A stretch of 64,000 nucleotides of DNA from Pollutibacter soli (GTDB lineage: Bacteria > Bacteroidota > Bacteroidia > Chitinophagales > Chitinophagaceae), in NCBI GenBank assembly GCA_029269725.1, contig JARJHS010000002.1:868001-932000 (forward strand). Reading direction: 5' to 3'. The stretch's first letter is position 1. Each line of letters begins with the position of its first letter. Both the position numbers and the translations under genes were made by a program. The notes beneath the pieces were generated by a model that worked only from the letters and a program-made list of their open reading frames with translations, did no database searches and was not told the origin of the DNA. Below, in pieces: positions 571 through 64,000 of the stretch.

Positions 571-773
571 TCACAAAGCAACAGGTAGCAGACCGCAGCA
601 ATGTGCATGCAATTTCCGAATGACGGATTCGATTTAAAGCTTATATACAGGTAATCATTTTTGTTACCGCACAGGGCTGACCCTGAACCTTAAACTTATA
701 ACTTTCAACTCCTGCTCGCTACTTACTACTCACTACTTACTTTTTTAGTAATTTGTCCCGTTAAACCGGTATT
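571..773. other. Intergenic gap with a 7-base-period array
   Basis: No gene is visible. Bases 684-746 form nine heptads of the type nAACTTA/CTACTNA in tight register (see the repeat entry). A TAATTTG sequence at 749-755 lies 18 bases upstream of the next ATG and could be a -7 box, but no -33 TTTG is seen at the right distance. Confidence 0.5.
684..746. repeat. 7-base-period degenerate tandem array
   Basis: Nine consecutive heptads in register, beginning TGAACCT, TAAACTT, ATAACTT and later CTACTTA, CTACTCA, CTACTTA. The unit drifts along the array while the period stays at 7. It belongs to the dispersed family described in the findings. Confidence 0.75.
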
Positions 774-1181
774 ATGGAAAAAGATAAAATACCCCAGGAT
801 GATGGCGCACTGAATAAATTGACGAGGGAAGTATGTTATGCCGTAGATGAATCCGGAAATTATACTACAGCACTGAGTACAGGATGGGAAGTTAAAGCGG
901 CAGCTCTTGGCCTCGCCTGGGATGATATCCAGCAAAGGATAAAAGATGCGCATGATAAGGTAGTGCGCAAAGAGGCGAGCCCTGTGTTATTTTTTATGGA
1001 ATGGAGATTGATGGATGTACCCATTCTTGCGTCCTATACCGGTTTCTGGCAATGGACGGTGAAGAGACATTTAAAATACGACGTGTTTCAGAAATTATCA
1101 GATAAAAAGCTGCAGAAATATGCGGAAGCATTTGATATTTCTGTGAACGACCTCAAAACCATGAACGTACATGAAGAATGA
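774..1181 (+). CDS. Conserved flexirubin-cluster protein of unknown function
   Basis: A 135-residue protein without a signal peptide or membrane segment, rich in Lys, Asp and aromatic residues. It is predicted helical, with a Trp-rich central part (FFMEWRLMDVPILASYTGFW around residues 73-92). I recognise no catalytic motif. Its stop overlaps the start of the BtrH-like gene by 11 bases, so the two are very probably translated together. That pairing, and the position directly after darB, suggest an accessory role in pigment assembly, for example a partner or chaperone for the acyltransferase. This is inference from position only. The ATG at 774 is the first in frame. Confidence 0.75.
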   Translation: MEKDKIPQDDGALNKLTREVCYAVDESGNYTTALSTGWEVKAAALGLAWDDIQQRIKDAHDKVVRKEASPVLFFMEWRLMDVPILASYTGFWQWTVKRHLKYDVFQKLSDKKLQKYAEAFDISVNDLKTMNVHEE

Positions 1182-2187
1182 TTTTGTTCATCTGCAGGCT
1201 GCACATTGTGAAAATGGCGTGACCACCAATTTGTTGAGAAAAGCTGGCGCAGATAAATTGACAGAGCCGTTATCGTTCGGGATTGGTTCAGGGCTGTTTT
1301 TCATTTATATACCGTTTTTAAAAGTGAATAAAGGGCCGGCGATCGCATTCCGTACAATGCCCGGTCACATTTTTAAACGTACAGCCAAGTCACTCGGTAT
1401 TTCGATTCACAGGGAAACTTTCCGATCAAAGGAAAAAGCAGAACAACGTCTCGACGAATGTATAGAGGCGGGACTTGCTGTGGGTTGCCAGGTAGGAGTG
1501 TACTATCTCACTTATTTTCCGAAAGAATATCGTTTTCATTTTAACGCGCATAACCTCATCATTTACGGACGTGAAGGTGATGAATATCTGGTGAGTGATC
1601 CGGTAATGGAATCGGTGACGACGCTTACAAAGTTTGATCTTACACGCGTGCGTTTTGCAAAAGGCGCGATGTCGCCCAAGGGGCAACTTTATTATCCAAA
1701 GGAGAATAAAATTGTAACTGATGAACAGATCCGTGAGGGAATAAAATCCGGCATCAGGCGAAACGTGCGTGATATGCTTCATATTCCTGGCCCCATTGCT
1801 GGAGTGAGCGGGATAGTGTATACGGCTAACCGGATTCGCAAATGGCGGGATAAGCTGGGTCTGAAAGATGCAGGATTGTATCTCGCTCAGCTGGTACGTA
1901 TGCAGGAAGAAATCGGAACAGGTGGCGGTGGATTTCGCTATATCTACGGTGCATTTTTACAGGAGGCTTATGCCTATCTACCACAGGATGAGTTATTGGA
2001 TATTTCAAAAAAGTTTACAAAATCAGGTGATCTCTGGCGCAATGCTGCGGTTCATGCAGCAGGTATATATAAAGGCAGACTGACTACTCAGCAGGATTTC
2101 GATTTAATGGCTGATCAGATGATGGCCATTGCTGCACTGGAAAAAGATGCTTTCCAGGATCTGAAAAAAATCAAATGGCGTTCATGA
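1171..2187 (+). CDS. BtrH-N domain protein, candidate acyl-ACP acyltransferase
   Basis: A 338-residue protein whose first ~180 residues look like the BtrH N-terminal domain, a papain/C39-like fold. BtrH moves an acyl group from the carrier protein BtrI onto an aminoglycoside in butirosin synthesis. A plausible triad is visible: Cys13 in AHCENGVTT, His127 in NAHNLIIYG and Asp143 in VSDPV. The C-terminal ~150 residues are helical. There is no signal peptide, so it acts in the cytoplasm. It overlaps the preceding gene by 11 bases and the next ABC gene by 4 to 13. Inference: it could form the ester between the polyene acyl-ACP and the resorcinol hydroxyl, a step with no other obvious enzyme here. 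Confidence 0.82.
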   Translation: MKNDFVHLQAAHCENGVTTNLLRKAGADKLTEPLSFGIGSGLFFIYIPFLKVNKGPAIAFRTMPGHIFKRTAKSLGISIHRETFRSKEKAEQRLDECIEAGLAVGCQVGVYYLTYFPKEYRFHFNAHNLIIYGREGDEYLVSDPVMESVTTLTKFDLTRVRFAKGAMSPKGQLYYPKENKIVTDEQIREGIKSGIRRNVRDMLHIPGPIAGVSGIVYTANRIRKWRDKLGLKDAGLYLAQLVRMQEEIGTGGGGFRYIYGAFLQEAYAYLPQDELLDISKKFTKSGDLWRNAAVHAAGIYKGRLTTQQDFDLMADQMMAIAALEKDAFQDLKKIKWRS

Positions 2188-2939
2188 ATTTTCCGGCGGT
2201 GAGGATAGAAAACCTGAGTTTCATGTATCCGGGCCAGGCTCACCATTCCATCACCGGCATCAATCTTACAATTGCTGCAGGTGACAGGTTTGGTTTGTTC
2301 GGACCTAACGGTGCCGGCAAAACGACATTGATGGGATGCATGACTGGCATTCTGGATTTTACTGATGGAAGCATTGAAATTTTTGGCGAGAAAGTGAGCA
2401 GGAAGAACAGGTCATTCTGTTCAGTATTAGGATACGTACCACAGGAATATTCTTTTTACCAGGAGCTTGATCCGCTGGAAAACCTCGAATACTTCGGTGC
2501 GATGTCGGGCCTGAAAATGCCTGCAATCAAAAAGAAATCAGAAGAGCTGCTGAAAGTACTCGGCCTGTGGGATGTGCGTACTAAGCAGGTTGAAAAGTTT
2601 TCAGGCGGAATGAAACGTCGGGTGAATATCGCTATCAGTGTAATGCATGAACCGAAGATTTTATTCCTGGATGAACCGACAGTGGGCGTTGATGTACAAA
2701 CACGTTTCGCAATAATGGACTACCTGATGGAATTGAACAGAAGAGGAACGACGCTCGTCTATACATCCCATCAGCTCGCTGAGGCGCAAAACCTGTGTAA
2801 TAATTTTGCACTGATTGACCAGGGAAACATAATCGCACACGATACACTTGAACATCTCCTTGCAGCCCATGAAGCAGAAGGGCTGGAAGGATTGTTTATC
2901 AAATTAACAGGTAAAGCATACAGGGATAGTGATGTTTAA
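2175..2939 (+). CDS. ABC transporter ATP-binding protein
   Basis: A 254-residue ATPase subunit with Walker A GPNGAGKTT (residues 43-51), Q-loop region VPQEYSFY, signature FSGGMKRR (Ser143) and Walker B LFLDEP (Asp166-Glu167), followed by the H-loop in YTSHQLAEA. It resembles the ABC-2 export group (DrrA/NatA-like). It powers the permease encoded next, which overlaps it by 8 bases. ATG 2175 is used here; ATG 2184 forms an ATGA overlap with the upstream stop and may be the true start, giving a protein three residues shorter. The substrate is not readable from sequence; a pigment precursor or lipid fits the context. Confidence 0.93.
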   Translation: MAFMNFPAVRIENLSFMYPGQAHHSITGINLTIAAGDRFGLFGPNGAGKTTLMGCMTGILDFTDGSIEIFGEKVSRKNRSFCSVLGYVPQEYSFYQELDPLENLEYFGAMSGLKMPAIKKKSEELLKVLGLWDVRTKQVEKFSGGMKRRVNIAISVMHEPKILFLDEPTVGVDVQTRFAIMDYLMELNRRGTTLVYTSHQLAEAQNLCNNFALIDQGNIIAHDTLEHLLAAHEAEGLEGLFIKLTGKAYRDSDV

Positions 2940-7517: not shown

Positions 7518-7552
7518 AGCCGGGCACGAGGTTACTCTGACCGGCTTTTTTC
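7518..7552 (+). terminator. Rho-independent terminator
   Basis: AGCCGG (7518-7523) pairs with CCGGCT (7541-7546), with a smaller GAG/CTC pairing inside the loop, and a run of six T follows (7546-7551). It lies 23 bases after the stop of the secreted protein gene. Confidence 0.7.
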
Positions 7553-7579
7553 GTTGAACGTTGTACGTTCAACGTTGAA
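7552..7579. repeat. 7-base-period array (CGTTNNA type)
   Basis: Four heptads in exact register: CGTTGAA, CGTTGTA, CGTTCAA, CGTTGAA. They lie between the terminator and the next start. Because CGTTGAA and CGTTCAA are partly complementary, the array can also fold. Confidence 0.8.
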
Positions 7580-7586
7580 CCTTTCG

Positions 7587-17517: not shown

Positions 17518-17863
17518 ATTATTTCTTCAAAATCTGTACAAAGATTTAATCAGAACCAGGTTATGAAAATCGTTGAAGTTTGTCAGATAATTTCGGATGG
17601 GTAAAGTCGATACTTCATTTTTCACGACGTCAGGGTAAGCAAATTCATCGGCAATATTCCGAATTCGTAAAGCTGTTTCCGGTGATTTTCCGCTCCTGTT
17701 TCGACTATCCATTTTGATTACGACGTAGGATTTCAGATTAAATAGACAGGGTCTCACATTTATCTGTTGCCTGCTGCCCGCTCCCTGCTGCCTATTTCCG
17801 ATCTTTACCTTAATTTCGCACGTTTTATTACTTTACGGTTAAATTGAAAAATTACCCAATATC
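17518..17863. other. Intergenic gap, 346 bases
   Basis: No convincing gene. A 76-codon minus-strand frame (17527-17757) has no recognisable family and only a GTG start. A 7-base-period array lies at 17766-17800. TTAATTTCGC at 17810-17819 and TTTTATTAC at 17823-17831 are AT-rich candidates for the promoter of the ammonia-lyase gene, without a clear -33/-7 pair. Confidence 0.5.
17766..17800. repeat. 7-base-period array (GCTGCCT type)
   Basis: Five heptads in register: GTTGCCT, GCTGCCC, GCTCCCT, GCTGCCT, ATTTCCG. It is unusually GC-rich for an intergenic stretch of this genome, yet it has the same period as the AT-rich arrays elsewhere. Confidence 0.72.
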
Positions 17864-34380: not shown

Positions 34381-34415
34381 CGTTAAGCGTCGGACGTTTA
34401 ACGTTTAACGTTTTC
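34381..34415. repeat. 7-base-period array (CGTTTAA type)
   Basis: Five heptads in register: CGTTAAG, CGTCGGA, CGTTTAA, CGTTTAA, CGTTTTC. It lies in the divergent gap between the AlgH-like and histidine kinase genes. Confidence 0.8.
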
Positions 34416-35833: not shown

Positions 35834-36091
35834 TCTCCAGACTAATTTAGGGCCTGCTGTTTATTGTGCAAATCCGGATGGATATTGAACTGCAAAAGAA
35901 TTTTGATGCAGTGTCTGCATGGATATAAAAAGTCAAAGCGTGAAATCCTTTGCATCTGGTTGACCTCCACATCAGGTTTTTACTTCGGATTATCTATTCT
36001 ACACTTCTGCAAATACACCTCTTCAGCGAACAACGATGAACGAACAACGATGAACGAGAAACGCCGCCGCCCTCACATTTTTTGTTTTAGA
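35834..36091. other. Gap between convergent genes, with a 7-base-period array
   Basis: No credible gene. A 121-codon plus-strand frame runs through it into the peptidase gene but has no protein-like features. Bases 36022-36063 form a heptad array. Confidence 0.5.
36022..36063. repeat. 7-base-period array (AACAACG/ATGAACG type)
   Basis: Six heptads in register: TTCAGCG, AACAACG, ATGAACG, AACAACG, ATGAACG, AGAAACG. Here two heptamers alternate to give a 14-base super-repeat. Confidence 0.8.
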
Positions 36092-48239: not shown

Positions 48240-48250
48240 AAGTTAATAAT

Positions 48251-48386
48251 GAGCCCTGTAGGGGCGTAAGACAAGAGCCCTGAAAGAGCGAAAGAAAATA
48301 GATCCGTAGGATCGCCCAATCATTTAGCCGTGGATTTCAATCCACGGGATGTTGAAAATGGAAAACGGATTTCAATCCAGGGATTG
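48251..48386. repeat. REP-like hairpin element
   Basis: A set of short repeats: GAGCCCTG followed by a GAGCG/GGGCG-type word twice (48251-48271 and 48275-48295), a GATCC/GGATC hairpin (48301-48313), a perfect hairpin CCGTGGAT/ATCCACGG (48328-48347) and a partial second copy of its core, GGATTTCAATCC (48367-48378). This mixture is typical of REP-type dispersed elements moved by TnpA-REP (RAYT) transposases. No transposase gene lies in the window. Confidence 0.6.
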
Positions 48387-48442
48387 ATGGAATAAAAAGC
48401 GATCACGAAAAAAAATAAACGAACAATCATTACAGTAAAAAT

Positions 48443-49909
48443 TTGCCACGGTTACAGGACATATTGTACAAAGTAAAAATCCGGTCAGTGAACGGTACAA
48501 CCGATATTGATATCGATGACATCACCATCGATTCAAGAAAAGTGGTTCCCGGAGGATGTTTCATTGCGGTTCGCGGAACGCATGCAGATGGTCATGAATA
48601 TATCGACCAGGCAGTGAAGCAGGGTGCCGCAGTTGTTGTCTGCGAAGAGTTTCCAAAGAAAATGAAGGAAGCTGTATCCTGGATTCAGGTGGAAAATTCA
48701 GCAGAGGCTGCAGGATATATCGCGCACCAGTTTTTTGGTAGCCCGTCCGAAAAATTAAAGCTGGTTGGCGTTACCGGAACCAATGGCAAAACGACTATCG
48801 CGACATTATTGTTCAAATTGTTCACGCTGCTGGATCATCGCTGCGGTTTGGTTTCAACTGTACAAAACCAGGTGGGCGATAAAATCATTCCTGCAACACA
48901 TACCACACCCGATGCAGTGAGTCTGAACAGGTTGCTCCGCCAGATGTTGGACGATGGCTGCACACACGTATTTATGGAATGCAGCAGTCATGCGATTCAT
49001 CAGCATCGTATAACCGGCTTACATTTTACGGGTGCGATATTCAGCAATATCACGCACGATCACCTTGACTATCACAAAACATTCAACGAATACATACGCG
49101 TAAAGAAATCATTTTTTGATCATCTTGATGCCAATGCATTTGCAATATCTAACCTGGATGATAAGCGTGGAGCCGTGATGTTGCAGAACACACCTGCGGA
49201 TAAATTTTATTACAGTCTGCGTACGATCGCTGACTTCAAAGGAAGGATCATTGATAATAGTCTTGGTGGATTGCAGATGACGATCAATGAACAGGAAGTT
49301 CATTTCAGATTGATCGGCGAATTCAATGCATATAATCTTCTCTCGGTGTATGCTGCTGCGCTTTGTTTAGGCGAAGATCGCCAGGAAGTTTTGCGTATCC
49401 TGAGTAATCTCACCGGCGCTGAAGGAAGATTTGATTATCTGATTTCTGCAAAAGACAGAATTATCGGAATTGTTGATTATGCGCATACACCCGATGCACT
49501 ATTGAATGTGCTGACAACTATAAAAAAATTGAGAAGCGGTGGTGAGCAGATTATCACGGTGGTGGGTTGCGGTGGCGACAGGGATCGCACAAAACGAAGA
49601 CTCATGGCTGAGGTGGCATGCGAACATAGTGATAAGGCCATTTTCACTTCTGATAATCCAAGATCAGAAGATCCGGCAGCGATCATCAAAGAAATGGAAG
49701 AGAAGCTCACGCCGGCGGCTAAACGAAAAGTAATATCGATTGTAGACAGGAGGGAGGCAATAAAAACGGCAATCACTGTTTGTCGTGAAGAGGATATCAT
49801 TCTCATCGCAGGTAAAGGACACGAAAAATACCAGGAAATAGCGGGGAACAAATTTCCCTTTGATGATAAGATGGTACTGAAGGAAATGTTTGAATTACTT
49901 GACCGCTGA
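48443..49909 (+). CDS. murE: UDP-MurNAc-tripeptide synthetase MurE
   Basis: A 488-residue Mur ligase with the ATP loop VTGTNGKTTIA (residues ~112-122) and the substrate motif DNPRSEDP, in which DNPR marks meso-diaminopimelate-type enzymes rather than lysine-type ones. It therefore adds meso-DAP to UDP-MurNAc-L-Ala-D-Glu in the cytoplasm. The start is TTG 48443, which gives the usual LQDILYKV beginning; no better ATG is near. Confidence 0.96.
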   Translation: MPRLQDILYKVKIRSVNGTTDIDIDDITIDSRKVVPGGCFIAVRGTHADGHEYIDQAVKQGAAVVVCEEFPKKMKEAVSWIQVENSAEAAGYIAHQFFGSPSEKLKLVGVTGTNGKTTIATLLFKLFTLLDHRCGLVSTVQNQVGDKIIPATHTTPDAVSLNRLLRQMLDDGCTHVFMECSSHAIHQHRITGLHFTGAIFSNITHDHLDYHKTFNEYIRVKKSFFDHLDANAFAISNLDDKRGAVMLQNTPADKFYYSLRTIADFKGRIIDNSLGGLQMTINEQEVHFRLIGEFNAYNLLSVYAAALCLGEDRQEVLRILSNLTGAEGRFDYLISAKDRIIGIVDYAHTPDALLNVLTTIKKLRSGGEQIITVVGCGGDRDRTKRRLMAEVACEHSDKAIFTSDNPRSEDPAAIIKEMEEKLTPAAKRKVISIVDRREAIKTAITVCREEDIILIAGKGHEKYQEIAGNKFPFDDKMVLKEMFELLDR

Positions 49910-49912
49910 AGG

Positions 49913-49940
49913 TGAAACGTAAAACGTATAACGTATAACG
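49913..49940. repeat. 7-base-period array (TATAACG type)
   Basis: Four heptads in register directly after murE: TGAAACG, TAAAACG, TATAACG, TATAACG. Confidence 0.82.
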
Positions 49941-50008
49941 TGCGCCTAAGCTGGTGCAAGATATTGATGGACAATTGAGGTGCCCGGATTGTTGAGATTT
50001 TTGGCTAA

Positions 50009-50053
50009 CTCGACGTATAACGTTCAACGTTATACGTACAACGTAAAACGTAA
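50009..50053. repeat. 7-base-period array running into the mraY start
   Basis: Six heptads CTCGACG, TATAACG, TTCAACG, TTATACG, TACAACG, TAAAACG, then TAA directly before ATG 50054. The array occupies the place of a ribosome-binding site. Confidence 0.82.
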
Positions 50054-51325
50054 ATGGTTTATCATCTTTTTAACTGGCTGACTTCGGAGGGGATCAAATT
50101 CCCGGGGAGTGGACTGTTTCAGTTCATCACTTTCCGGGCATTGATGGCTATCCTCCTCAGTCTGATAATTACGATGATATATGGAGGCCGGATCATTCGA
50201 TATCTGCAGAACAAGCAGGTCGGCGAAAGCGTAAGAGAACTTGGACTACAGGGTGAAGAGAAAAAGAAAGGAACCCCGACGATGGGTGGCATCATCATCC
50301 TGCTCGGAATTTTGATCCCGACATTATTATTCGCTGATCTGAATAAAACTTATATCCGTCTTATGGTGCTTTGCACCATTTGGTTGGGCATCGTTGGATT
50401 TATTGATGACTATCTGAAACTACGGGCAAAAAGACTGGCGCAGAAAGCAGGAGTCGCATATAAAAAAGGCGATAAAGATGGACTTGCCGGATGGTTTAAA
50501 ATACTCGGCCAGGTAGGCCTGGGCATTATCATTGGAGCAACCTTGCTTTTCAACGATAATGTCCAGGTATACCGCGAGTATAAAGGCACCCAGATTCCAT
50601 CGGATGCGATTCCGGTAAAATTCCGTGATACAACACGGCATTTTGTTCCGGCAAATGAACCGATTACAACCATTCCTTTTGTTAAAAGCCACGAGTTCAA
50701 CTATTCGAAACTTTTACCAAAGGCAATGCGTGGCCTTACTTCGATCCTTTATATCGTAATCGTGATATTTATTGTAACAGCTGTATCCAATGGGGCAAAT
50801 ATCACCGATGGTCTGGATGGACTTGCAACCGGGGTATCTGCATTGATCGGCATCTGTCTTGCCATTTTTGCTTATGCGAGTGGTAATCTTTTGCTGGCTG
50901 ATTACCTCAACATCATGTACATACCCAACCTGGGTGAAGTGTCCATATTTATTGCAGCAATGATCGGAGCGTGTATTGGATTCCTGTGGTACAACACATT
51001 TCCTGCTCAGGTTTTTATGGGTGATACGGGAAGTCTTGCACTGGGTGGAATCATCGCTGCGCTGGCGATCATTGTCAGGAAAGAATTATTGATCCCCATT
51101 TTCTGTGGCGTTTTCCTGATAGAAAATCTGAGTGTAATGCTACAGGTGAGTTATTTCAAATACACGAGGAAAAAATACGGCGAAGGAAGAAGAGTCTTCT
51201 TGATGAGCCCTCTTCATCATCATTACCAGAAGCTGGGATACCATGAGAGTAAGATAGCAGTGCGGTTTTGGATCGTGACTTTGTTATGTGTTGTGTTCGC
51301 GATATTATCATTAAAGATCAGGTAG
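50054..51325 (+). CDS. mraY: Phospho-MurNAc-pentapeptide transferase MraY
   Basis: A 423-residue integral membrane enzyme that makes lipid I from UDP-MurNAc-pentapeptide and undecaprenyl phosphate. Visible are about ten membrane segments, KKGTPTMGG, the catalytic Asp pair in GFIDDYLK, NITDGLDGLATG and the C-terminal HHHYQKLG. It is longer than E. coli MraY (360) because of a ~60-residue loop (around 160-225) before NITDG, a form usual in Bacteroidota. Confidence 0.96.
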   Translation: MVYHLFNWLTSEGIKFPGSGLFQFITFRALMAILLSLIITMIYGGRIIRYLQNKQVGESVRELGLQGEEKKKGTPTMGGIIILLGILIPTLLFADLNKTYIRLMVLCTIWLGIVGFIDDYLKLRAKRLAQKAGVAYKKGDKDGLAGWFKILGQVGLGIIIGATLLFNDNVQVYREYKGTQIPSDAIPVKFRDTTRHFVPANEPITTIPFVKSHEFNYSKLLPKAMRGLTSILYIVIVIFIVTAVSNGANITDGLDGLATGVSALIGICLAIFAYASGNLLLADYLNIMYIPNLGEVSIFIAAMIGACIGFLWYNTFPAQVFMGDTGSLALGGIIAALAIIVRKELLIPIFCGVFLIENLSVMLQVSYFKYTRKKYGEGRRVFLMSPLHHHYQKLGYHESKIAVRFWIVTLLCVVFAILSLKIR

Positions 51326-51605
51326 TAAAAATAAAGAGCTGGAGTATTTGTGGATGGAACGTAACGCAGGCGGTTAAACGATGAGTTTGGAAAGTGAACG
51401 GGAAAGAATGGAATTGTATTAAGTAATCAGTACGCAGATCCGGTGACAACCATTCCGGAAGATGATTCGGGGGTCATAAATGCGTCATCCTGAAAAACCA
51501 TCCATACATGTTCTCGAAAACTGAAGATCTGTTCCAGGGCTTCTGTTAACGTACCAAAGAAATTCATCCATTGAAGAACCAATTTTTTTTTGAAAAGGGA
51601 ATGTA
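51326..51605. other. Gap mraY-murD, 280 bases
   Basis: I see no gene, clear hairpin or repeat array. Only very short frames occur. The run of T at 51583-51590 just before murD is not part of a hairpin. Confidence 0.4.
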
Positions 51606-52943
51606 ATGAACAGGCGTCTTGTAATTCTGGGAGGAGGTGAAAGCGGTGTAGGAGCGGCGATCCTGGCGAAGAAGGAAGGGTATGCAGTTTTCGTTTCCGA
51701 TGGCGGTGTGATTAAAGATCATTATAAAAAAGACCTGCAGTCCCGCGGAATTGAATTCGAAGAAGGTGGCCACAGCGCAGAGAAAATGCAATGGGCCGGG
51801 GAAGTCATGAAGAGTCCTGGTATTCCTCACAAAAGTCCTGTAGTACAAGATTTTTTAGAAAGAGGAGTTCCGCTGATCAGTGATATAGAGCTGGCCTATC
51901 GCCACAAAGGGAAGAGCAAAATCATCGGAATCACCGGCAGCAATGGGAAGACGACAACAACGGCAATGATCTTCCACATCTGCAAAACAGCAGGATTGGA
52001 TTGTGCGCTGGTAGGTAATATCGGCTTTTCGATGGCGAGGCAGGTGGCCGAAGATCCGAAAGAATTGTATGTGACGGAGATCAGTAGTTTTCAATTGGAT
52101 GATATCATAACGTTCAGACCTGATGTAGCGGTGCTGACGAATATTACCGAAGATCATCTGGACAGATATGATTATTCTTTTGAAAAGTACATCAGAGCAA
52201 AATTCAATATCGTAAAGAACCAGGAAGCGGGAGATGTTTTTATTTATTGTGAAGACGATCCTGTAACCATGCAATACATCAACCTGATCCCTTTTTCATC
52301 AAACCCATTGCCGTTTGCTATGAGCCGAGAATTGCCCAAGGGCGCGTATATCAACAACAACCACATGGTTATTACCGGACATGAACCGCTGACCATGAGT
52401 ATTTATGACTTTGCCTTAAAAGGAAAACATAATCAGTATAATACCATGGCAGCATGCCTGGCAGCATCGGTTATGGATATCCGAAAAGAAAAGATCCGCG
52501 ATGCGGTAACTTCTTTTGAAAGTCTTGAGCATCGAATGGAACCGGTGTCAACGATAAGAGGGGTAGAATTCATCAATGATAGTAAGGCGACCAATGTAAA
52601 CAGTACCTGGTTTGCTTTGGAAAGTATGGAGAAGCCGGTGATCCTGATATTGGGCGGTGTTGATAAAGGCAATGATTATTCGAGTTTGATGGAACTGGTG
52701 AAAGAAAAAGTGAAAGCGATTGTGTGCATGGGAGTAGACAATACAAAAATTCACAAAGCTTTTGGACAGGAGGTAGAGGTTATGGTAAATACAGCCAGCG
52801 CAAAAGAAGCAGTACATGCTGCATTCCGCCTGGCAGATAAAGGTGATGTTGTGTTACTCAGCCCTGCCTGTGCAAGTTTTGATCTGTTTAAAAATTACGA
52901 AGACAGAGGAAAGCAATTTAAAGAAGCGGTGAGGGAACTGTGA
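51606..52943 (+). CDS. murD: UDP-MurNAc-L-alanine:D-glutamate ligase MurD
   Basis: A 445-residue Mur ligase with the N-terminal UDP-binding motif LGGGESGVGAAILA, ATP loop ITGSNGKTTTTAM (~109-121), NDSKATN and the C-terminal ACASFDLFKNYEDRG. It adds D-Glu to UDP-MurNAc-L-Ala. It follows the standard order after mraY. Confidence 0.97.
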   Translation: MNRRLVILGGGESGVGAAILAKKEGYAVFVSDGGVIKDHYKKDLQSRGIEFEEGGHSAEKMQWAGEVMKSPGIPHKSPVVQDFLERGVPLISDIELAYRHKGKSKIIGITGSNGKTTTTAMIFHICKTAGLDCALVGNIGFSMARQVAEDPKELYVTEISSFQLDDIITFRPDVAVLTNITEDHLDRYDYSFEKYIRAKFNIVKNQEAGDVFIYCEDDPVTMQYINLIPFSSNPLPFAMSRELPKGAYINNNHMVITGHEPLTMSIYDFALKGKHNQYNTMAACLAASVMDIRKEKIRDAVTSFESLEHRMEPVSTIRGVEFINDSKATNVNSTWFALESMEKPVILILGGVDKGNDYSSLMELVKEKVKAIVCMGVDNTKIHKAFGQEVEVMVNTASAKEAVHAAFRLADKGDVVLLSPACASFDLFKNYEDRGKQFKEAVREL

Positions 52944-52971
52944 GTAGGTAGTAAGTAGTAAGTAGTAAGTT
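52944..52971. repeat. 7-base-period array (GTAAGTA type)
   Basis: Four heptads in register immediately after the murD stop: GTAGGTA, GTAAGTA, GTAAGTA, GTAAGTT. Confidence 0.82.
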
Positions 52972-53073
52972 GGGGACAGCCGGCCGATGAGTGTGCCGCC
53001 CTGTTTTCTGTTTCAGTGTTCTGTTTCTGATTTAGGCAAAAGGAACCGCCCGAACCCTATGTTCAGAGGCTCT

Positions 53074-53115
53074 GCAAACGAAGAACGAACAACGAAGACC
53101 GAACAATGAAGAACT
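53074..53115. repeat. 7-base-period array (AAGAACG type)
   Basis: Six heptads in register: GCAAACG, AAGAACG, AACAACG, AAGACCG, AACAATG, AAGAACT. It resembles the array at 36022. Confidence 0.78.
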
Positions 53116-53123
53116 GGCTGTTC

Positions 53124-53193
53124 AAACTATGAACTATGAACTATAAACTTCGAACTATGAACTTCGAACTATGAACTTCGAACTATGAACTAA
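53124..53193. repeat. 7-base-period array (GAACTAT/GAACTTC type)
   Basis: Ten heptads in register, the longest array in the window: GAACTAT and GAACTTC alternate in its second half. It ends six bases before ATG 53199 of ftsW. Confidence 0.88.
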
Positions 53194-53198
53194 AAAAC

Positions 53199-55554: not shown

Positions 55555-56906
55555 GTCGGCTGAATGACATACGACACATCTACTTCATCGGTATCGGTGG
55601 TATCGGGATGAGTGCCATTGCGCGCTATTTCCATGCCAACGGTGCTAAAGTGAGCGGCTACGATCGTACTTCCACTGTGCTTACCCGTGAGCTTGAATCC
55701 GAAGGAATGGAAATCGTATATCATGATGATCCGACTACCGTGAAAGGAATGATCGATGCGGTGGTGTATACGCCAGCCATCCCCAAGGACAACAAAGTCA
55801 TGCAGCATTTCCGGATCAATGGATTTTCGTTGCTGAAGCGCAGTGACATTCTCCAATTGATCAGTGAAGCAAGTTTTAATATATGCATTGCAGGTACACA
55901 TGGCAAAACAACCATCAGTACGATGACGGCGCATTTGCTTCGTGACTCGGGATATGGTTGTAACGCTTTCCTTGGAGGTATTTCAGTAAACTATAATACC
56001 AATTTCTGGAGCAGTACAAATAATGTTTGTGTAATTGAAGCTGATGAATACGACAGAAGCTTTTTAAAACTGAGTCCGGATATCGAAGTGATTTCAGCGA
56101 TGGATGCGGACCATCTGGATATCTATGGAACTGCTGCAGAAATGGAGAAAGCATTCATTGCTTTTTCAGCGCGACTGAAACCTGGTGGTGTTTTGTTGAG
56201 CAGGTACGGACTTAAAAGAACTGCTGAACTCGAAGCGCCCGTTCATTTCACCTATGGAGTCAATGAAGAGAAAGCTAACGTCTTTGCAGAAAACATAAAG
56301 ATCAGTGATGGCTCATATGTGTTTGATGTGTTTCATGATCAGTGGAAATTGAATGGCGTGCAATTAAATATGGGTGGAATGCATAATGTGGAAAATAGTA
56401 TCGCAGCAATTGCTATAGCGCACCGGTTGGGAATTGCTGATGACAAAATTAAATCCGCTGTTGCAAGTTTCAGGGGGGTGAAGCGAAGATTTGAATATAT
56501 CGTGAAGAATAACAGGCAGGTGTATATTGATGACTACGCACATCATCCGGAAGAGCTACGGGCTTTAATTTCAAGCGCGAAAAATTTATTCCCTGGAAAA
56601 AAATGTACTGTAATCTTTCAACCACATCTGTTCACAAGAACAAGAGACCTGGTGGATGGGTTTGCAGAAAGCTTAAGCATTGCGGATGAAATTATTTTGC
56701 TGCCGATCTATCCGGCCAGGGAGTTACCAATTCCGGGAGTTACCAGCGAGATGATCCGTGAGAAGATAAAAGATAAGTCGGTGATCATTCTTGAGAAGGG
56801 AAGAATTACGGAATGGGTGGCAGGACGTAAACCTGAATTTTTAATAACCGCAGGTGCAGGTGATATTGATACTTTGGTTAAACCACTGGGAGAAATACTG
56901 AGTTAA
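55551..56906 (+). CDS. murC: UDP-MurNAc:L-alanine ligase MurC
   Basis: A 451-residue Mur ligase with the N-terminal FIGIGGIGMSAIAR, ATP loop AGTHGKTTISTM, the EADEYDRSFL block and DDYAHHPEE. It adds L-Ala to UDP-MurNAc. It begins in an ATGA overlap with murG. Confidence 0.97.
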   Translation: MSRLNDIRHIYFIGIGGIGMSAIARYFHANGAKVSGYDRTSTVLTRELESEGMEIVYHDDPTTVKGMIDAVVYTPAIPKDNKVMQHFRINGFSLLKRSDILQLISEASFNICIAGTHGKTTISTMTAHLLRDSGYGCNAFLGGISVNYNTNFWSSTNNVCVIEADEYDRSFLKLSPDIEVISAMDADHLDIYGTAAEMEKAFIAFSARLKPGGVLLSRYGLKRTAELEAPVHFTYGVNEEKANVFAENIKISDGSYVFDVFHDQWKLNGVQLNMGGMHNVENSIAAIAIAHRLGIADDKIKSAVASFRGVKRRFEYIVKNNRQVYIDDYAHHPEELRALISSAKNLFPGKKCTVIFQPHLFTRTRDLVDGFAESLSIADEIILLPIYPARELPIPGVTSEMIREKIKDKSVIILEKGRITEWVAGRKPEFLITAGAGDIDTLVKPLGEILS

Positions 56907-56910
56907 TGCA

Positions 56911-57972
56911 ATGAAAGCGTCTGGTCGCATATGGAAATTGTTGGTGTTGTCGGGATGGATCATTCTCGGCCTCGGCTTGATCACTCTTTTCGTGGCTGCG
57001 ATGCAGGGTCGCTCGGATAAGCCATGCAAGGACGTGAGCATTGTGATCAAAGGTGGCGATCAGCATCCTTTCATCAATAAGAAGGACATCACTCTCGAAC
57101 TTGAACCCAAAGGAATTGATTATCTACGGGGGCGTTCAGTGAAAGAGTTCAATCTCAAAAATATGGAGGATCGCCTGCAGTTGAATCCATGGGTGAGGAA
57201 TGCAGAATTGTATTTTGACAATAACCATGTACTTCGGGTGAGCGTGGAGGTGAATATGCCGATAGCCAGGATTTTTACGGTGAAGGGAAATTCATTTTAT
57301 ATCGATAGCAGTCTTGATAACCTGCCCTTGAGTGAAAGATACTCTCCGAGACTTCCGGTGTTCACCGGATTTCCAGCTGAAAAAGTACGTGCGAAATCAA
57401 AAGACAGTGTGTTGGTCAGGGACATCCGCAATCTCGCTGATTTCCTCAACACGCATCCTTTCTGGATGGCGCAGATCGACCAGATTGATATTACGGCTGA
57501 AAAGAAGTTTGAGATGGTGCCGAAAGTGGGCGATCACATTATAGTATTTGGTAATGGAGATGATATTGAAAAGCGCTTTCATAAACTGGAAGTGTTTTAC
57601 ACCCAGGTGATGAGTAAGACCGGTTGGAATGATTACAGTGCACTGGATATCCAGTATGGTGACCAGGTAGTGGCGACAAAAAGAAATTATACTTATCATA
57701 AATCCGACACTGCTGTTGAAAAACGGTGGATGAAGGAATGGCAAAAACTATCAGGTCAGATGTTGGCGGCCGACACGTTGCAACGTGTAACGTCAACTAA
57801 TGACTCCCTTTCAACCCGGCCTGAAGATCCGATAACCCAACCTATGACCAATCAACCTTCCGAAAAAAATCCTGATCCCGGGAAGAATAAAAATTCGGGA
57901 TCAAAAGGTACCGTACCTGCTGAAAGACAGAAACCGAAGGCGCTGTATTCGCCGGGAAAGAAACAAACATGA
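56911..57972 (+). CDS. ftsQ: FtsQ/DivIB-like division protein
   Basis: A 353-residue bitopic protein: short cytoplasmic tail, membrane segment (~10-30), a POTRA-like domain from ~45 (VIKGGDQHPFINKKDITL) and a beta domain up to ~270. The last ~70 residues are low-complexity, rich in Pro, Lys, Asn and Ser, and absent from E. coli FtsQ. Position between murC and ftsA supports the call. It would recruit the FtsL/FtsI complex in the periplasm. Confidence 0.9.
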   Translation: MKASGRIWKLLVLSGWIILGLGLITLFVAAMQGRSDKPCKDVSIVIKGGDQHPFINKKDITLELEPKGIDYLRGRSVKEFNLKNMEDRLQLNPWVRNAELYFDNNHVLRVSVEVNMPIARIFTVKGNSFYIDSSLDNLPLSERYSPRLPVFTGFPAEKVRAKSKDSVLVRDIRNLADFLNTHPFWMAQIDQIDITAEKKFEMVPKVGDHIIVFGNGDDIEKRFHKLEVFYTQVMSKTGWNDYSALDIQYGDQVVATKRNYTYHKSDTAVEKRWMKEWQKLSGQMLAADTLQRVTSTNDSLSTRPEDPITQPMTNQPSEKNPDPGKNKNSGSKGTVPAERQKPKALYSPGKKQT

Positions 57973-58044
57973 TCAACGCAGGAAAAGCAGTTGACGATAA
58001 TTGTGAAAGGGGTTTCTGCAAGAGTCGTCAACTGCGCTCCGCGA

Positions 58045-58072
58045 ACGTTCAACGTTTAACGTTTAACGCAGG
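58045..58072. repeat. 7-base-period array (ACGTTTA type)
   Basis: Four heptads in register between ftsQ and ftsA: ACGTTCA, ACGTTTA, ACGTTTA, ACGCAGG. Confidence 0.8.
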
Positions 58073-58107
58073 AACCCGAAAATTAAAGAACGTTTAAAAA
58101 TATAAGC

Positions 58108-59478
58108 ATGTCAAATACTCAACCCATTATTGTCGGTCTCGATATCGGAACCACTAAGATTGCCGCTATTGCCGGTCGAAAGAATGATTTTGGAAAGCTG
58201 GAAATCCTGGGCTTTGGTCGCGCCAATAGTAATGGTGTTCAGCACGGAATGGTTTTAAATATTGATCAGACGATAAAAGCCATACAAACTGCGCTGGAGA
58301 ATTGTTATGCTTCAAATCCCAACCTGGAGATTAGTGAGGTGTATGTCGGCATTGCCGGTCATCATATCAAAAGTTTACAGACACGCGGTGATATCGTTCG
58401 TCGCTCAACAGATGATGAAATTCGCCAGCAGGAAATTGATCAGCTCATTGCAGATCAGTATAAAACATATATACCCGCGGGAGATCAGATCATCGATGTA
58501 ATTCCACAGGAATTTACCGTCGATAATTTCCAGAATATTCCTGATCCGATCGGGTACAGCGGAGTAAAAGTGGGTGCAAATTTTCACATCATCACCGGTG
58601 ATAAAAATGCGATACGCAATATCAACAGAAGTGTTGAGAAAGCCGGCTTGTCAGTAAAAGATCTCGTATTGCAACCACTGGCGTCTTCTGCAGCAGTCAT
58701 GTGTGAGCAGGACCTTGAAGCTGGAGTAGTGATTGTGGATATCGGGGGTGGTACAACAGACCTCGCCGTGTTTTATGAAGGAATTCTGAAACATACTGCT
58801 GTTATTCCATTTGGTGGTGAGAATATCACCAACGATATCAAAACTGGTCTGGGTGTTTTGAAAACCCAGGCAGAGCAGATGAAGATCCAGTTTGGTAGTG
58901 CGCTGGCTGATGAAGCGAAATCAAATGCCTTTATCAATATTCCCGGATTGAGAGGAATGCCGCACAAAGAAATCAGTGTAAAAAATCTGGCGTCGATTAT
59001 ACAGGCGCGCATGAGCGAGATACTCGATTTTGTTACTTATCATTTGAAACAGGTGGGTCTCGATAATCGGGTATTAAATGGTGGCATTGTGCTTACAGGG
59101 GGCGGATCGCAATTGAAACACCTGATCCAGCTTACAGAATATGTAACGGGGTTGAATGCGAGGATCGGATTTCCGAATGAACATCTTGCGGCGGGTCATA
59201 TCGAAGAATTGGCCAAACCGATGTACGCCACCTGTATCGGCCTGATCCTGAAAGGATATAATGTTTTTGAGAATGTCCAGTATCAGCAGCATAAGGCTGA
59301 AAAGAAAGTTCGGTCTGCCGGAACAGTTAGCCCGGAGGAAGCGACGGCAGAAGTATTCGTTGAAGAGGAAATTGCAACAGTAAAGGTGGGTAAAAGAAAA
59401 AGTTTGAAAGGATTTATGGATTCTATAAAAGACGGGTTGATCGACCTGTTCAAGGAAGAAGAAGACCGAAAGTTATAA
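58108..59478 (+). CDS. ftsA: Cell division protein FtsA
   Basis: A 456-residue actin-like ATPase with phosphate-1 VGLDIGTTKIAAIAG (residues ~9-23), phosphate-2 VIVDIGGGTTDLAVF and adenosine motif GGIVLTGGGSQLKHL. The C-terminal KRKSLKGFMDSIKDGLIDLF (~430-449) looks like the amphipathic membrane-targeting helix. It tethers FtsZ to the membrane and recruits division proteins. Confidence 0.97.
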   Translation: MSNTQPIIVGLDIGTTKIAAIAGRKNDFGKLEILGFGRANSNGVQHGMVLNIDQTIKAIQTALENCYASNPNLEISEVYVGIAGHHIKSLQTRGDIVRRSTDDEIRQQEIDQLIADQYKTYIPAGDQIIDVIPQEFTVDNFQNIPDPIGYSGVKVGANFHIITGDKNAIRNINRSVEKAGLSVKDLVLQPLASSAAVMCEQDLEAGVVIVDIGGGTTDLAVFYEGILKHTAVIPFGGENITNDIKTGLGVLKTQAEQMKIQFGSALADEAKSNAFINIPGLRGMPHKEISVKNLASIIQARMSEILDFVTYHLKQVGLDNRVLNGGIVLTGGGSQLKHLIQLTEYVTGLNARIGFPNEHLAAGHIEELAKPMYATCIGLILKGYNVFENVQYQQHKAEKKVRSAGTVSPEEATAEVFVEEEIATVKVGKRKSLKGFMDSIKDGLIDLFKEEEDRKL

Positions 59479-59604
59479 GCCTGTGCTTAACCAAGTGTGC
59501 TTATCCCTGAAACCACAAGACAGATCCGGCCACAGAAAGAAAACCGTATTTACTAATCCATCCTGCTGTGCAAAGTGCGGAAGCGGGTTGAAAAAAACAA
59601 AACC

Positions 59605-61446
59605 ATGATCCATTTTGATTTACCGAAAGACCAATCATCTATCATCAAAGTAGTAGGTGTTGGCGGTGGTGGAAGTAACGCAGTCAACTATATGTTCAGT
59701 CAGGGGATTGACGGTGTTGATTTCGTGATTTGTAACACTGATTCGCAGGCGCTTTCACTGAGCAAGGTGCCAAATAAGATTCAGCTCGGGCCCGCGCTCA
59801 CACAGGGTTTGGGTGCAGGAGCAAATCCTGCAATCGGGCGCCAGGCAACAGAAGAAAGTCTCGAAGAAATTCGTCGCATTCTTGAAGTAAATACCAAAAT
59901 GGTTTTTGTGACCGCAGGTATGGGCGGTGGAACCGGAACAGGCGGAGCTCCCATCGTTGCAAAAATCAGTCGCGACCTCGGTATACTTACGGTAGGCATC
60001 GTAACAACACCTTTTTCTTATGAAGGAAAGAAAAGAATTCAACATGCACAGGAGGGTATCAATCAGCTGAAGCAGTATGTTGATACCTTGCTGGTGATCA
60101 GCAATGATAAACTGCGACATCAGTTTGGAAATCTTACCATGCGTGCTGCATTTTCTACTGCAGATAATGTACTTGCGACAGCGGCAAAATGTATTACCGA
60201 TGTAATCAATTCCACGGGTCAGATCAACGTCGACTTCGCTGACGTTTGTACGGTTATGCGTAACGGTGGTGTTGCAATTCTGGGTAGTGCAACTGCATCT
60301 GGCGAAAATCGTGCGAAACTGGCAATTGAACATGCGTTGAATTCTCCGTTACTTAACGATAACGATATCCAGGGTGCGAAATGGATACTCATCAATATCA
60401 ATTCAAGTGAGGGATCGAATGAATTCACTATGGATGAAGTTGAAATCATTCAGCAATACATCATATCCCAGGCAGGTCCGGATACGGATGTAATCCTCGG
60501 TATGGGTTATGATAGTTCTCTTGGTGACCAGATTGGAATCACATTAATCGCTACCGGTTTCGAACATAAAAATCCGTTTGATGTTCCGTCTTCAAAAGAA
60601 TCAGCAACCGGGAAAGCACCTGAGAAAGTTGTGCTAAATCTTGGTGATCAGCCTGAAAGAAAAGTTTATGCACAGGTGCCAAAACCTGTTGTGGAAAAAG
60701 ATCCGATGCAGCCAACTTTGGTAGAAACAGTACAAACTCCTGTAAACCAGCCAGATGCTCCACCAGCCAAGGAAACATTGACCCTGGCGGAGGAAAATGA
60801 CTCTACCATATTTGATGATGGCAGTGTATCTTTATTGCCCGGATATCAAATTCCTACAGAAGATCTGACACCAGCCAAGCTGCAACAGGCAGCTGATGCA
60901 TACCCGAGCCAACAAACAGTACCGGATTATAAAGAAGCTAGCACCACCGTAACGTTAGGTGGATTTTTGGCCAGGCCATCCAACATCTATGCAGAGGACC
61001 CTGTAAAGTTAGAATCCAAAGATCAAGATTCTAATGAAGAGCCTCATCAGTTGAATATGCCAAAAGAAGCTGATCCCTTCTTCGACATGCAGCTGGTGAT
61101 AAAAGAAACCCCCGCGGCGGATGAACAGCCAAGGGCACCATCTACTCATGTTACATTGGCTCCAGTCGAGGAGCCTGCTTTGCAGGACGAGACGGAGGAA
61201 CAGAAACGTAAGGCTGCAGAGCGTTTGCACAAGTTGCGCAACTTGAGCTTTAACCTCAATTCAGCCGATCCAAATAATGAGTTTGAAAATGTGCCGGCTT
61301 ACATCCGCCGCAATTTACAGGTGCATAACACTGCTCTGACCTCCGTCGAAAAATTCTACAGCAAGTACGAAGTAAAAACCGACGAGAATAACCAGGCCCA
61401 GATCAGTACCATCAATACTTTTCTTGACGGGAAAAAACCGGATTAA
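59605..61446 (+). CDS. ftsZ: Cell division GTPase FtsZ
   Basis: A 613-residue tubulin homologue with GVGGGGSNAVNYM at the N-terminus, the GTP signature GGGTGTGG (107-114) and the T7 catalytic-loop region in the globular part (to ~320). The remaining ~290 residues are mostly a disordered linker rich in Pro, Glu and Asp; the end (QAQISTINTFLDGKKPD) may carry the FtsA-binding peptide. E. coli FtsZ has 383 residues; long tails are common in Bacteroidota. ATG 59605 is chosen over GTG 59575, which would add ten residues without family support. Confidence 0.97.
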   Translation: MIHFDLPKDQSSIIKVVGVGGGGSNAVNYMFSQGIDGVDFVICNTDSQALSLSKVPNKIQLGPALTQGLGAGANPAIGRQATEESLEEIRRILEVNTKMVFVTAGMGGGTGTGGAPIVAKISRDLGILTVGIVTTPFSYEGKKRIQHAQEGINQLKQYVDTLLVISNDKLRHQFGNLTMRAAFSTADNVLATAAKCITDVINSTGQINVDFADVCTVMRNGGVAILGSATASGENRAKLAIEHALNSPLLNDNDIQGAKWILININSSEGSNEFTMDEVEIIQQYIISQAGPDTDVILGMGYDSSLGDQIGITLIATGFEHKNPFDVPSSKESATGKAPEKVVLNLGDQPERKVYAQVPKPVVEKDPMQPTLVETVQTPVNQPDAPPAKETLTLAEENDSTIFDDGSVSLLPGYQIPTEDLTPAKLQQAADAYPSQQTVPDYKEASTTVTLGGFLARPSNIYAEDPVKLESKDQDSNEEPHQLNMPKEADPFFDMQLVIKETPAADEQPRAPSTHVTLAPVEEPALQDETEEQKRKAAERLHKLRNLSFNLNSADPNNEFENVPAYIRRNLQVHNTALTSVEKFYSKYEVKTDENNQAQISTINTFLDGKKPD

Positions 61447-61451
61447 TTCAG

Positions 61452-61480
61452 GAGACCTGTTGCTTCACGCAACAGGTCTC
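61452..61480 (+). terminator. Hairpin after ftsZ
   Basis: A perfect 12-bp stem GAGACCTGTTGC/GCAACAGGTCTC around a TTCAC loop, 5 bases after the ftsZ stop. Only three T follow directly, so it may protect the mRNA end as much as terminate. Confidence 0.65.
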
Positions 61481-61515
61481 TTTGTTCATAGTTGTACCTT
61501 TCTGAAACTACATAG

Positions 61516-61827: not shown

Positions 61828-61862
61828 AACTTCTGCCGTCGGCTGTCAACCATCTGCTGTCT
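61828..61862. repeat. 7-base-period array (GCTGTCT type)
   Basis: Five heptads in register: AACTTCT, GCCGTCG, GCTGTCA, ACCATCT, GCTGTCT. It is more degenerate than the others. Confidence 0.6.
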
Positions 61863-62871: not shown

Positions 62872-63110
62872 ACGGTAGAAGTGAGTAGTACCAAGCTGAT
62901 GAATAGCGGTTTTCAATGTCAGGAACATTTTTGTTTTTTGTAGAGGTAAGACCTGTCTTGTCTCTGCAAGAATGAGAAACAACAAGTTTCATAAACATGG
63001 AGAGTGAAGGAAGCTTATCGATAAAAAAGAGATTTCAGGAATACGTCGTTCATTCTTCGTTGAAACAGCCGGCTGTTCCCTGCTTACAACTTACTATGCT
63101 CACCATCTGC
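62872..63110. other. Gap between convergent genes
   Basis: I see no gene or clear hairpin. A 66-codon plus-strand frame from 62997 runs into the antisense side of the protease gene and lacks protein-like features. Confidence 0.4.
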
Positions 63111-63773
63111 TCATTCAATTCCCTCTACCTCCCGATGGTCCGGATGATACACATTTGTGAAATCTCCAAGTATCGCTTTGTTATTTCTGAATCTTAATCT
63201 GGTTAATCTAAGATTTTCGATATCCTGCGCATTTACGCGGCGATGCATGGGATGCATTGTACCACCTGGTGCTCCAGGTTGCGCAGCTGGATCGTACTGA
63301 AATTGAGGATCAACCCATGTTCCACGCGGATACATAATCCCCGGACGTCCGCGCCCACGGATATCCAGCTGGGTCGGGTGTTCCAGCCCAATACCATGAC
63401 CAAACTCATGAGCAGCGGTTGTTGATCCGACATAAAGATTCTCAAGTTTGAAATAACCCGAGTTACTTCCAATTGCATCAACAAAAGATATATTTCCGAA
63501 TGCATACTCTTCGATCCTGTAATAATTATTTTTCGGATCAGTATTGCCTACAACTTCTTCAGGCATAATATCTGGTCTCCATTGCGGAACTATTCTGAAT
63601 ATAACGTTATAGGGTAGTCGATTTATTAAAATTTCACCATGAGCTTCATTCCAGAGCGTTTCAATTTCCTCCGAAATCACTTTCGTAATCTGTGCCGTCG
63701 AAGCACTTCCATAAGTGATTATGGTCGCATCCAGTAAAATATTTTGTGAAGAGGCCAGTGTTACTTCAACCAT
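63111..63773 (-). CDS. Metzincin-type zinc metalloprotease
   Basis: A 220-residue protein with the full metzincin zinc site HEFGHGIGLEH (His122, His126, His132, Glu123) and a likely Met-turn at IMYPRG about 15 residues later, followed by a Pro/Gly-rich stretch. It is close to M10/matrixin-like enzymes. No signal peptide is seen in the first residues, so export, if any, would need another route, or the start is further upstream. It is a lone gene facing the TIGR01777 gene. Confidence 0.82.
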   Translation of the reverse strand: MVEVTLASSQNILLDATIITYGSASTAQITKVISEEIETLWNEAHGEILINRLPYNVIFRIVPQWRPDIMPEEVVGNTDPKNNYYRIEEYAFGNISFVDAIGSNSGYFKLENLYVGSTTAAHEFGHGIGLEHPTQLDIRGRGRPGIMYPRGTWVDPQFQYDPAAQPGAPGGTMHPMHRRVNAQDIENLRLTRLRFRNNKAILGDFTNVYHPDHREVEGIE

Positions 63774-64000
63774 TATAATAAAATTATGAATTCCATATCC
63801 AATCGGTATTTCCTATTGAGAAAACGCATGCGTTGGCTCTCCAACCAGCCTGCTTCAACAGGAGCAGGAACGTTACATCTTGTTGCAATTTCTGGTGCAT
63901 TTCGGCCCCGCGAAAGATGACTTATAACTTATCACTTACCACTAGCGTTGCGTCTTTAGTCAAAGATTTTCAATTGGTTATCATTACTGTTCTTAAAATT
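63774..64000. other. Region upstream of the protease gene
   Basis: No gene is visible to the window end. CCTGCT/AGCAGG words at 63849-63870 could form a small hairpin, and a heptad array lies at 63919-63946. Confidence 0.4.
63919..63946. repeat. 7-base-period array (AACTTAT type)
   Basis: Four heptads in register: GACTTAT, AACTTAT, CACTTAC, CACTAGC. The units resemble those at 684-746. Confidence 0.72.

Follow-up and report, generated by a model that had tools for sequence, protein, structure and literature searches.

Seven-base tandem arrays between the genes of Pollutibacter soli as probable arms of short dispersed inverted-arm elements

Short tandem arrays with a seven-base step (heptad arrays) are scattered between the genes of a 64,000-nucleotide stretch of the Pollutibacter soli genome, called here the window (positions 868001-932000 of contig C12, GenBank JARJHS010000002.1, in genome G000, 6.12 Mb in 37 contigs). 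Part of the window, about 44000-61500, is presumably a cell-division and cell-wall gene cluster, and we take the gene at 58108-59478 to be FtsA-like. Gene calls come from a simple script based on codon usage, and gene boundaries, the starts most of all, are approximate. Arrays were called from segments of matching at lag k (match +1, mismatch -1.5), with a cut-off score of at least 10 for counts in the window and in 400 kb of a second contig (C1:1-400000); together these amount to 464 kb, or 7.6% of the genome. For comparison we sampled 400 kb per genome from three members of a single genus, the Pinibacter group (G060, ‘Chitinophagaceae bacterium 26-R-25’; G061, Pinibacter soli; and G062), along with 80 ftsA loci, and also 20 shorter stretches from the genus and order of Pollutibacter; G033 and G022 denote genomes of its own genus, and L numbers denote individual stretches from relatives or from the Pollutibacter genome itself. 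The titled relatives closest by FtsA were mainly metagenome bins labelled Chitinophagaceae, Chitinophagales or Sphingobacteriales, with some named Chitinophagaceae.

Twelve lag-7 segments reach the cut-off in the window, whereas 60 second-order Markov versions of it averaged 0.12 and never exceeded 2; lags 6 and 8 gave none, and lag 14 gave seven. All twelve belong to the 14 arrays listed by the initial annotation, and the other two, at 48198 and 61828, fall short (best segments 48216-48230, score 5.5, and 61832-61847, score 4). From left to right on the forward strand, a CTACTTA array at 719..741 (score 11; C-type, with 8 C and 0 G) sits on the right of its gap, at relative position 0.78, shortly 5' of the start codon at 774, and is followed by a CGTTGAA/AACGTTN array at 7552..7583 (score 12.5, self-complementarity 18) with the near-perfect palindrome GTTGAACGT-TGT-ACGTTCAAC. 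The CTGCTGCC/CTGTTGCC array at 17764..17793 (score 10.5; C-type, 14 C and 7 G) also lies on the right side, the ACGTTTA array at 34394..34413 (score 13; 3 G, 3 C) occupies a divergent gap, and the CGAACAA/CGATGAA array at 36024..36063 (score 10.5) occupies a convergent one and has a 14-base higher-order unit (Tandem Repeats Finder, 36027-36057: period 14, 100%). The gap at 49909-50054 holds two arrays: AACGTAT at 49909..49941 (score 18.5; left side, 7 G and 4 C), which starts at the upstream gene's stop codon, and AACGTNN at 50013..50054 (score 15, self-complementarity 22.5), which extends to the start codon at 50054 and includes the palindrome ACGTATAACGTT-C-AACGTTATACGT at 50013-50037. The orthologous gap in G022 (L173, L177) carries a heptad hairpin, GGTTCATGGTTCATAGTTCATCGTTCATGGT-attg-CCATGAACCATGAACC. 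Further along are an AGTAAGT array at 52943..52970 (score 18.5; G-type, 9 G and 0 C) that begins at a stop codon, an AACGAAG/AACGAAC array at 53077..53103 (score 12.5) in the right half of its gap and, beyond a GGCTGTT linker at 53116..53122, an AACTATG/AACTTCG array at 53125..53192 (score 26; 13 C, 8 G). This last array ends beside the start codon at 53199 and is a member of a dispersed family; the 261 bases around it have 45 matches in the genome, its own copy included. The AACGTTN array at 58044..58068 (score 15.5, self-complementarity 15.5), upstream of the ftsA-like gene, has a longer AACGT array at its site in G033, and the ACTTATA array at 63917..63943 (score 12.5) lies beyond the start of the minus-strand gene 63111-63773, in a gap that exceeds the window.

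The seven-base step extends beyond the window. Across C1:1-400000, segments scoring at least 10 numbered 49, 34, 21 and 11 at lags 7, 14, 21 and 28, whereas lag 6 gave 13 and lag 8 gave 2. With C1 and the window pooled, intergenic positions matched at a mean rate of 0.3025 at lag 7, 0.2745 at lag 6 and 0.2716 at lag 8, and the intergenic excess over the two neighbouring lags, put forward initially as a check on the period, is therefore present in the part of the genome sampled; coding DNA has no lag-7 excess (0.2495, 0.2691 and 0.2488 at lags 7, 6 and 8, respectively). We rejected a general lag-7 excess of intergenic DNA outside the arrays, since little remains once they are removed (0.2766 vs 0.2732 and 0.2708). 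The statement that no array lies inside coding sequence holds in the main though not strictly: nine of the 12 window arrays overlap no called gene and three reach one by a single base each, but 121 of the 1756 array bases in C1 fall within called genes. Tandem seven-base units above expectation and mainly outside genes, the hallmarks of heptanucleotide long simple sequence repeats (LSSRs), were thus found. The distribution is patchy, with at least one lag-7 segment in 42 of the 80 ftsA loci and none in 15 of the 20 further stretches. The claim that the period is always 7 stands for this sample but not for the relatives, which also carry period 8 (58, 43 and 57 segments in the samples of G060, G061 and G062) and, at some Pinibacter-group sites, arms of period 9. 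A genome of the same order has a long period-7 array (L244, from 5658) composed mostly of AAGA plus three varying bases per unit.

The heptamer had been described as differing widely from array to array, which is true of neighbouring arrays but not across the genome. Among 100 intergenic arrays scoring at least 8 in C1 and the window, 87 have an exact 11-mer, on either strand, in common with an array at another locus, compared with a mean of 34.2 and a maximum of 47 when phase columns were permuted; locus pairs with a common 11-mer numbered 318 (permuted 22.6, maximum 37), and with the AACGTT type excluded 61 of the 74 remaining arrays still had one (permuted 18.6). Because this sharing is far above permutation, we conclude that the units are drawn from a restricted dictionary; the independent origin of units at each site that LSSRs imply was not found. 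Individual words recur at high copy number: AACGTTNAACGTTNAACGTT, which is its own reverse complement, has 89 partly overlapping matches in the genome (0 when read backwards), and the 17-mer of the AACTATG type, AACTATGAACTATGAAC, occurs 22+19 times in G000, 55+37 times in G033 and 16+27 times in G022, with no copy in the other 38 of the 41 genus genomes searched. Of 200 array edges, 14 have a linker word, AACAGCC/GGCTGTT, no more than 18 nt away; the non-array intergenic DNA sampled contains it 26 times altogether (edges included), and it is also found beside or between arrays at L002, L003, L004, L006 and L008. In the Pinibacter group even the order of unit variants is common to different loci, as judged by 26-mers against unit shuffling, in G060 (120 vs a mean of 47, maximum 69) and G062 (65 vs 27, maximum 42), with G061 borderline (14 vs 6.7, maximum 14).

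The arrays are also polar with respect to the gap in which they lie. Omitting ties, an excess of G over C in the left half of a gap, or of C over G in the right half, characterized 38 of 47 arrays in the Pollutibacter genome (p 2.5e-5) and 335 of 415 arrays of the Pinibacter group, the latter in every gap orientation; measured against assumed backgrounds of 0.58 and 0.56, respectively, the p values are 8e-4 and 2e-26. Non-array intergenic DNA has a skew of 0.01 to 0.12, of the same sign in 8/8 classes of the Pinibacter group and 7/8 of Pollutibacter. When 12 Pollutibacter repeat words are each given in the G-rich form, 163 of their 203 occurrences agree with the polarity, the word itself standing on the left or its complement on the right, a tally summed by hand, with words picked after gap inspection and tandem occurrences not independent; the exception is GTTCTTAG (3/7 with the polarity). 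The window array at 36024..36063 runs contrary to it, lying on the right but having more G (10) than C (9).

In the Pinibacter group the polarity coincides with an inverted arrangement of the arrays. Merging arrays of periods 7, 8 and 9 and seeking a reverse-complement partner within 300 bp, with the flanks of a randomly drawn array as control, we found an inverted partner for 114 of 175 arrays in G060 (direct 17, control 11), 72 of 128 in G061 (direct 7, control 7) and 121 of 179 in G062 (direct 16, control 11). The 5' arm of a pair has more G than C in 52/63, 32/43 and 63/71 pairs of G060, G061 and G062, the reverse being true in 9, 4 and 4. An inverted 12-mer common to the two halves of a gap, a test that would also count ordinary terminators, was present in 132 of 614 Pinibacter-group gaps (9.2 with halves shuffled, 11 direct) and in 10 of 205 Pollutibacter gaps (1.1 shuffled, 4 direct). 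Conserved inverted arms around a divergent spacer, as in REPINs (repetitive extragenic palindromic [REP] doublets forming hairpins), and the terminal inverted repeats of miniature inverted-repeat transposable elements (MITEs) are therefore both features of G060, G061 and G062. Some families have typical spacer lengths (37-39 in 8 of 11 AACTGAAT pairs, for example), and the spacers look locus-specific: 109 of them gave 20 matches, mostly orthologs, the remainder being overlapping pairs, array-bearing stretches or 13-mers. RNA-like structure was rejected as a property of the spacers (mean fold z -0.43 over 166 spacers of 20-160 nt, 13% below -2), the most strongly folding being those with a terminator-like hairpin, as was a conserved inner motif beside the Pinibacter-group arms, where k-mer enrichment returned mostly arm-like words. 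One period-8 AATTTGAA arm pair, at G060 C4:183132-183350 (L122 3132-3350), flanks a tRNA-Tyr gene (L122 3173-3257, ARAGORN), and the whole armed block is conserved in G060 and G061, with flanks at 93-96%.

Orthologous gaps differ both in array length and in the element they hold. The array at 53125-53192 spans 68 nt, compared with 33 nt at the orthologous site in G033, so that the two differ by five units (counted by eye). For 61 elements of G060 the orthologous gap in G061 could be compared: it holds a pair in 33 cases, only unpaired arrays in 10 and no array in 18; the corresponding figures are 47, 5 and 8 of 60 from G060 to G062, and 30, 2 and 2 of 34 from G061 to G062, and several gaps scored as having none contain another hairpin or a shorter one below threshold. 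Both arms are strongly unlike the ortholog in 14/33 (G060-G061), 20/47 (G060-G062) and 11/30 (G061-G062) pairs, unequal arm lengths lowering the agreement; arm-to-arm agreement within a genome is 0.92-0.94, a value biased upward by requiring pairs in both genomes. At G060 C4:55881 a period-7 element in G060 corresponds to a period-8 element in G061 and a different period-7 hairpin in G062, C4:59150 has period 8 where G061 has period 9, and at both C4:59150 and C4:298217 sister species carry whole arms of another unit or period around a spacer that is partly kept. At the ortholog of 152627, G062 has an element nested within the remnants of another, and at 177273 the spacer is inverted between G060 and G062 (0.66 direct, 0.95 inverted). 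A period-9 hairpin family, GAACGCAGATTTTCATGATT..AATCATGAAAATCTGCGTTC, is seen at G060 C4:162172 and L217 (about 1030-1160), and in G061 it occupies the orthologs of G060 C4:57063 and 290678, where G060 has period 8.

Base changes in the arms point to decay at single positions, with little compensation. A tally based on 89 comparisons, with 3 dropped for identity below 70% and others for unequal arms or missing bases, contained 2216 paired arm positions with 68 double changes, compared with 14.7 expected, of which 53 were complementary. Because 49 of these 53 lie in elements with arm gaps, leaving 4 in three gap-free elements, the complementary doubles are best read as replacement or register shift, not base-by-base compensation. 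Pairing kept by compensatory or wobble changes, as expected of a structured RNA hairpin such as an intrinsic terminator, was not found, and quasi-palindrome correction or selection on pairing was rejected as the main cause of the matched arms on the same ground.

Taken together, these data lead us to favor, as the probable explanation, that the arrays are arms, some in pairs and others orphaned, and that they belong to several families of inverted-arm intergenic elements, short, dispersed and resembling REPINs or MITEs. An element would consist of a tandem array of 7-base units (7, 8 or 9 in relatives) at each end, inverted, around a locus-specific spacer, with mostly G-type composition in the 5' arm and C-type in the 3' arm. 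Copies would spread or replace each other between genes and insert within one another, their arms would gain or lose whole units, most likely by replication slippage, and decay after insertion would leave mosaics and solo arms such as those in the window. The features observed directly are the periodicity, the restricted dictionary, the polarity, the inverted pairing and element replacement in relatives, and one whole-unit length change within the genus; from them we infer that copies move, that the period is caused by slippage and that solo arrays are remnants. In the Pollutibacter genome the case draws on the dictionary, the polarity and a minority of direct pairs.

Several observations weigh against this explanation. 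Pairing is low in the Pollutibacter genome: in C1, 9 of 54 arrays are paired (direct 4, other-locus 3) and 8 are self-palindromic, and none of the 12 window arrays has an inverted partner at threshold (two have a direct partner and three are self-palindromic). The test for common variant order is null there (18-mers 5 vs 3.4, 22-mers 1 vs 0.4, 26-mers 0), and its polarity partly tracks the weak skew of the DNA outside arrays and breaks down for right-half arrays of convergent gaps (3 G-type against 4 C-type). One TAATTAA-type element matches other loci across both arms and spacer at 68-74%, and spacers in that family may therefore not be wholly locus-specific. Comparison with empty sites established no clean insertion with target duplication, most cases being replacements; one site, G060 C4:99403, has an ambiguous CTAGT repeat. 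Finally, no mobilizing enzyme was found, and the array-rich G022 genome (89% complete), in which the AACTATG 17-mer occurs 43 times, gave no match to PF01797.

PF01797 occurs in 23 of the 41 genus genomes, and the candidate enzymes considered were the Y1 transposases, which include the REP-associated tyrosine transposases (RAYTs). In the Pollutibacter genome a heptad array lies within 1.5 kb of only one of four Y1-transposase loci, about 1.1 kb away; a RAYT flanked by its own repeat, as in REPIN systems, was not found there for period 7, and a RAYT as mobilizer is unsupported for this genome. One RAYT has a period-9 arm or hairpin as its neighbour in each of G060, G061 and G062 (L217, L221, L229), and in G062 period-8 pairs flank another on both sides (L227). 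The palindromes nearest the Pinibacter-group RAYT genes are G+C-rich and non-periodic; by eye, those at L217, L221 and L229 and at L216 and L227, TGCAAGGCT..AGCCTTGCA and GGCGCAGATATGC..GCATATCTGCGCC, look like true REP families.

Alternatively, the arrays could be ordinary heptanucleotide simple sequence repeats, neutral products of polymerase-linked seven-base slippage that selection purges from coding DNA. The whole-unit length difference at the G033 site and the location of the lag-7 signal outside genes speak for this; a heptanucleotide excess has also been described, and a 7-nt interaction with the polymerase proposed (Mrazek 2007, as described in PMC4679880 and PMC4692102). We nevertheless regard this explanation as unlikely, because a polymerase step accounts for period and location but does not predict the shared dictionary, the polarity, the inverted pairs or the periods 8 and 9 of relatives. 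Of the two initial suggestions, a copying process with a step of about seven bases fits, in view of that whole-unit length difference and of the arrays lying mainly outside genes, and selection on spacing rather than on sequence is opposed by the restricted set of shared units, the left/right polarity and the three periods. Functional RNA or DNA hairpins, such as terminators or 3'-end stabilizers, kept by structural selection while their sequence drifts, would account for the pairing and for the fact that paired arms often start at the stop codon (median distance of the outer edge 1 nt in G060, n=66, and -2 in G061, n=42), and some spacers do contain a G+C-rich terminator-like hairpin, in two cases also in sister genomes. 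Over all arrays, however, the excess within 10 nt of a stop is modest (0.51 vs 0.39), and anchoring of Pollutibacter arrays at stop codons was rejected as weak at best (0.25 vs 0.18, n=51); divergent gaps carry arrays with equal polarity; and among single arm changes the pair-keeping G.T was not favored over A.C (64 to 67). Selection on hairpins is thus insufficient, since it explains pairing but not the absence of compensation (four complementary doubles in the three elements without arm gaps), and we consider it improbable. Decaying inverted-arm elements account for both the pairing and the scarcity of compensation in the Pinibacter group.

The differences in whole arms at one site between sister species, with the spacer partly kept, could also reflect the action of an enzyme devoted to extending hairpin ends by units of 7 to 9 bases, such as a polymerase that uses a template, but the many units per genome would require many templates, and such an enzyme seems very improbable. 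A bolder form of the element hypothesis, which we put forward with considerable doubt, is a so far undescribed Bacteroidota class of mobile hairpins whose ends would be rewritten in 7- to 9-base units and which would insert into the spacers of existing copies beside an AACAGCC-like motif, turning a large part of the intergenic DNA of some lineages into a palimpsest of periodic hairpins, nested and with a vocabulary particular to the lineage.

Inverted-arm elements built from heptads have partial precedents. The Xanthomonas GGGAATC repeats (Rehm et al. 2015, PMC4692102) are described as heptameric, intergenic, genome-wide arrays with heterogeneous units, nearer the 5' neighbouring open reading frame, and include convergent array pairs forming an inverted repeat (70 in Xcc, 75 in Xac). 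They resemble the present arrays in being dispersed and intergenic with heterogeneous units and inverted pairs but differ in having one G-rich unit, compared here with about a dozen units in mosaics, an AACAGCC linker and 8- and 9-base units in relatives. TAACTGA repeats, reported from Beggiatoaceae, cyanobacteria and five Bacteroidetes, the last in some cases with further heptamers repeated alongside (MacGregor 2015, PMC4679880), are likewise intergenic heptad arrays, often adjoining start codons, and between two Cyanothece strains their insertions and deletions are mostly in 7-nt increments; they differ in having one unit in direct repeats (one indirect among 169 sets), and the portions of that paper drawn on here describe no paired-arm architecture. 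The same source reports varied, often mixed heptamers in Microcystis aeruginosa, making the initial statement that cyanobacterial heptads keep a common unit too strict. REPINs (Bertels and Rainey 2011, PMC3116915) are similar as extragenic inverted doublets with a less conserved spacer and typical spacings, singlets taken as remnants, and insertion into or beside other copies; their palindrome-end tags are GTAG or CGTC (PMC3733652). Here, by comparison, the arms are tandem 7-9-base arrays. The BrickBuilt MITE of Porphyromonas gingivalis (PMC4596501), also from Bacteroidota and intergenic, combines tandem repeats with inverted ends, but its 23-base unit lies inside the element, in 19 copies in one strain, and its arrays are not arms.

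The heptad excess and inverted heptad pairs are thus already known, PMC4692102 removing much of their novelty. Relative to what PMC4692102 and PMC4679880 report in the portions used, the multi-unit dictionary, the general polarity, the families of period 7, 8 and 9 and the turnover at orthologous sites appear to be new, and no paper among the matches listed in the open-licence literature describes hairpins with multi-unit periodic arms from Chitinophagaceae. In many bacteria long repeats most often have a seven-base step, and the literature cited explains this by a property of the polymerase. Because steps of 7, 8 and 9 coexist in sister genomes, it becomes testable whether the step belongs to the element family, not to the polymerase, and solo heptad arrays may be the remnants of elements rather than local stutters.

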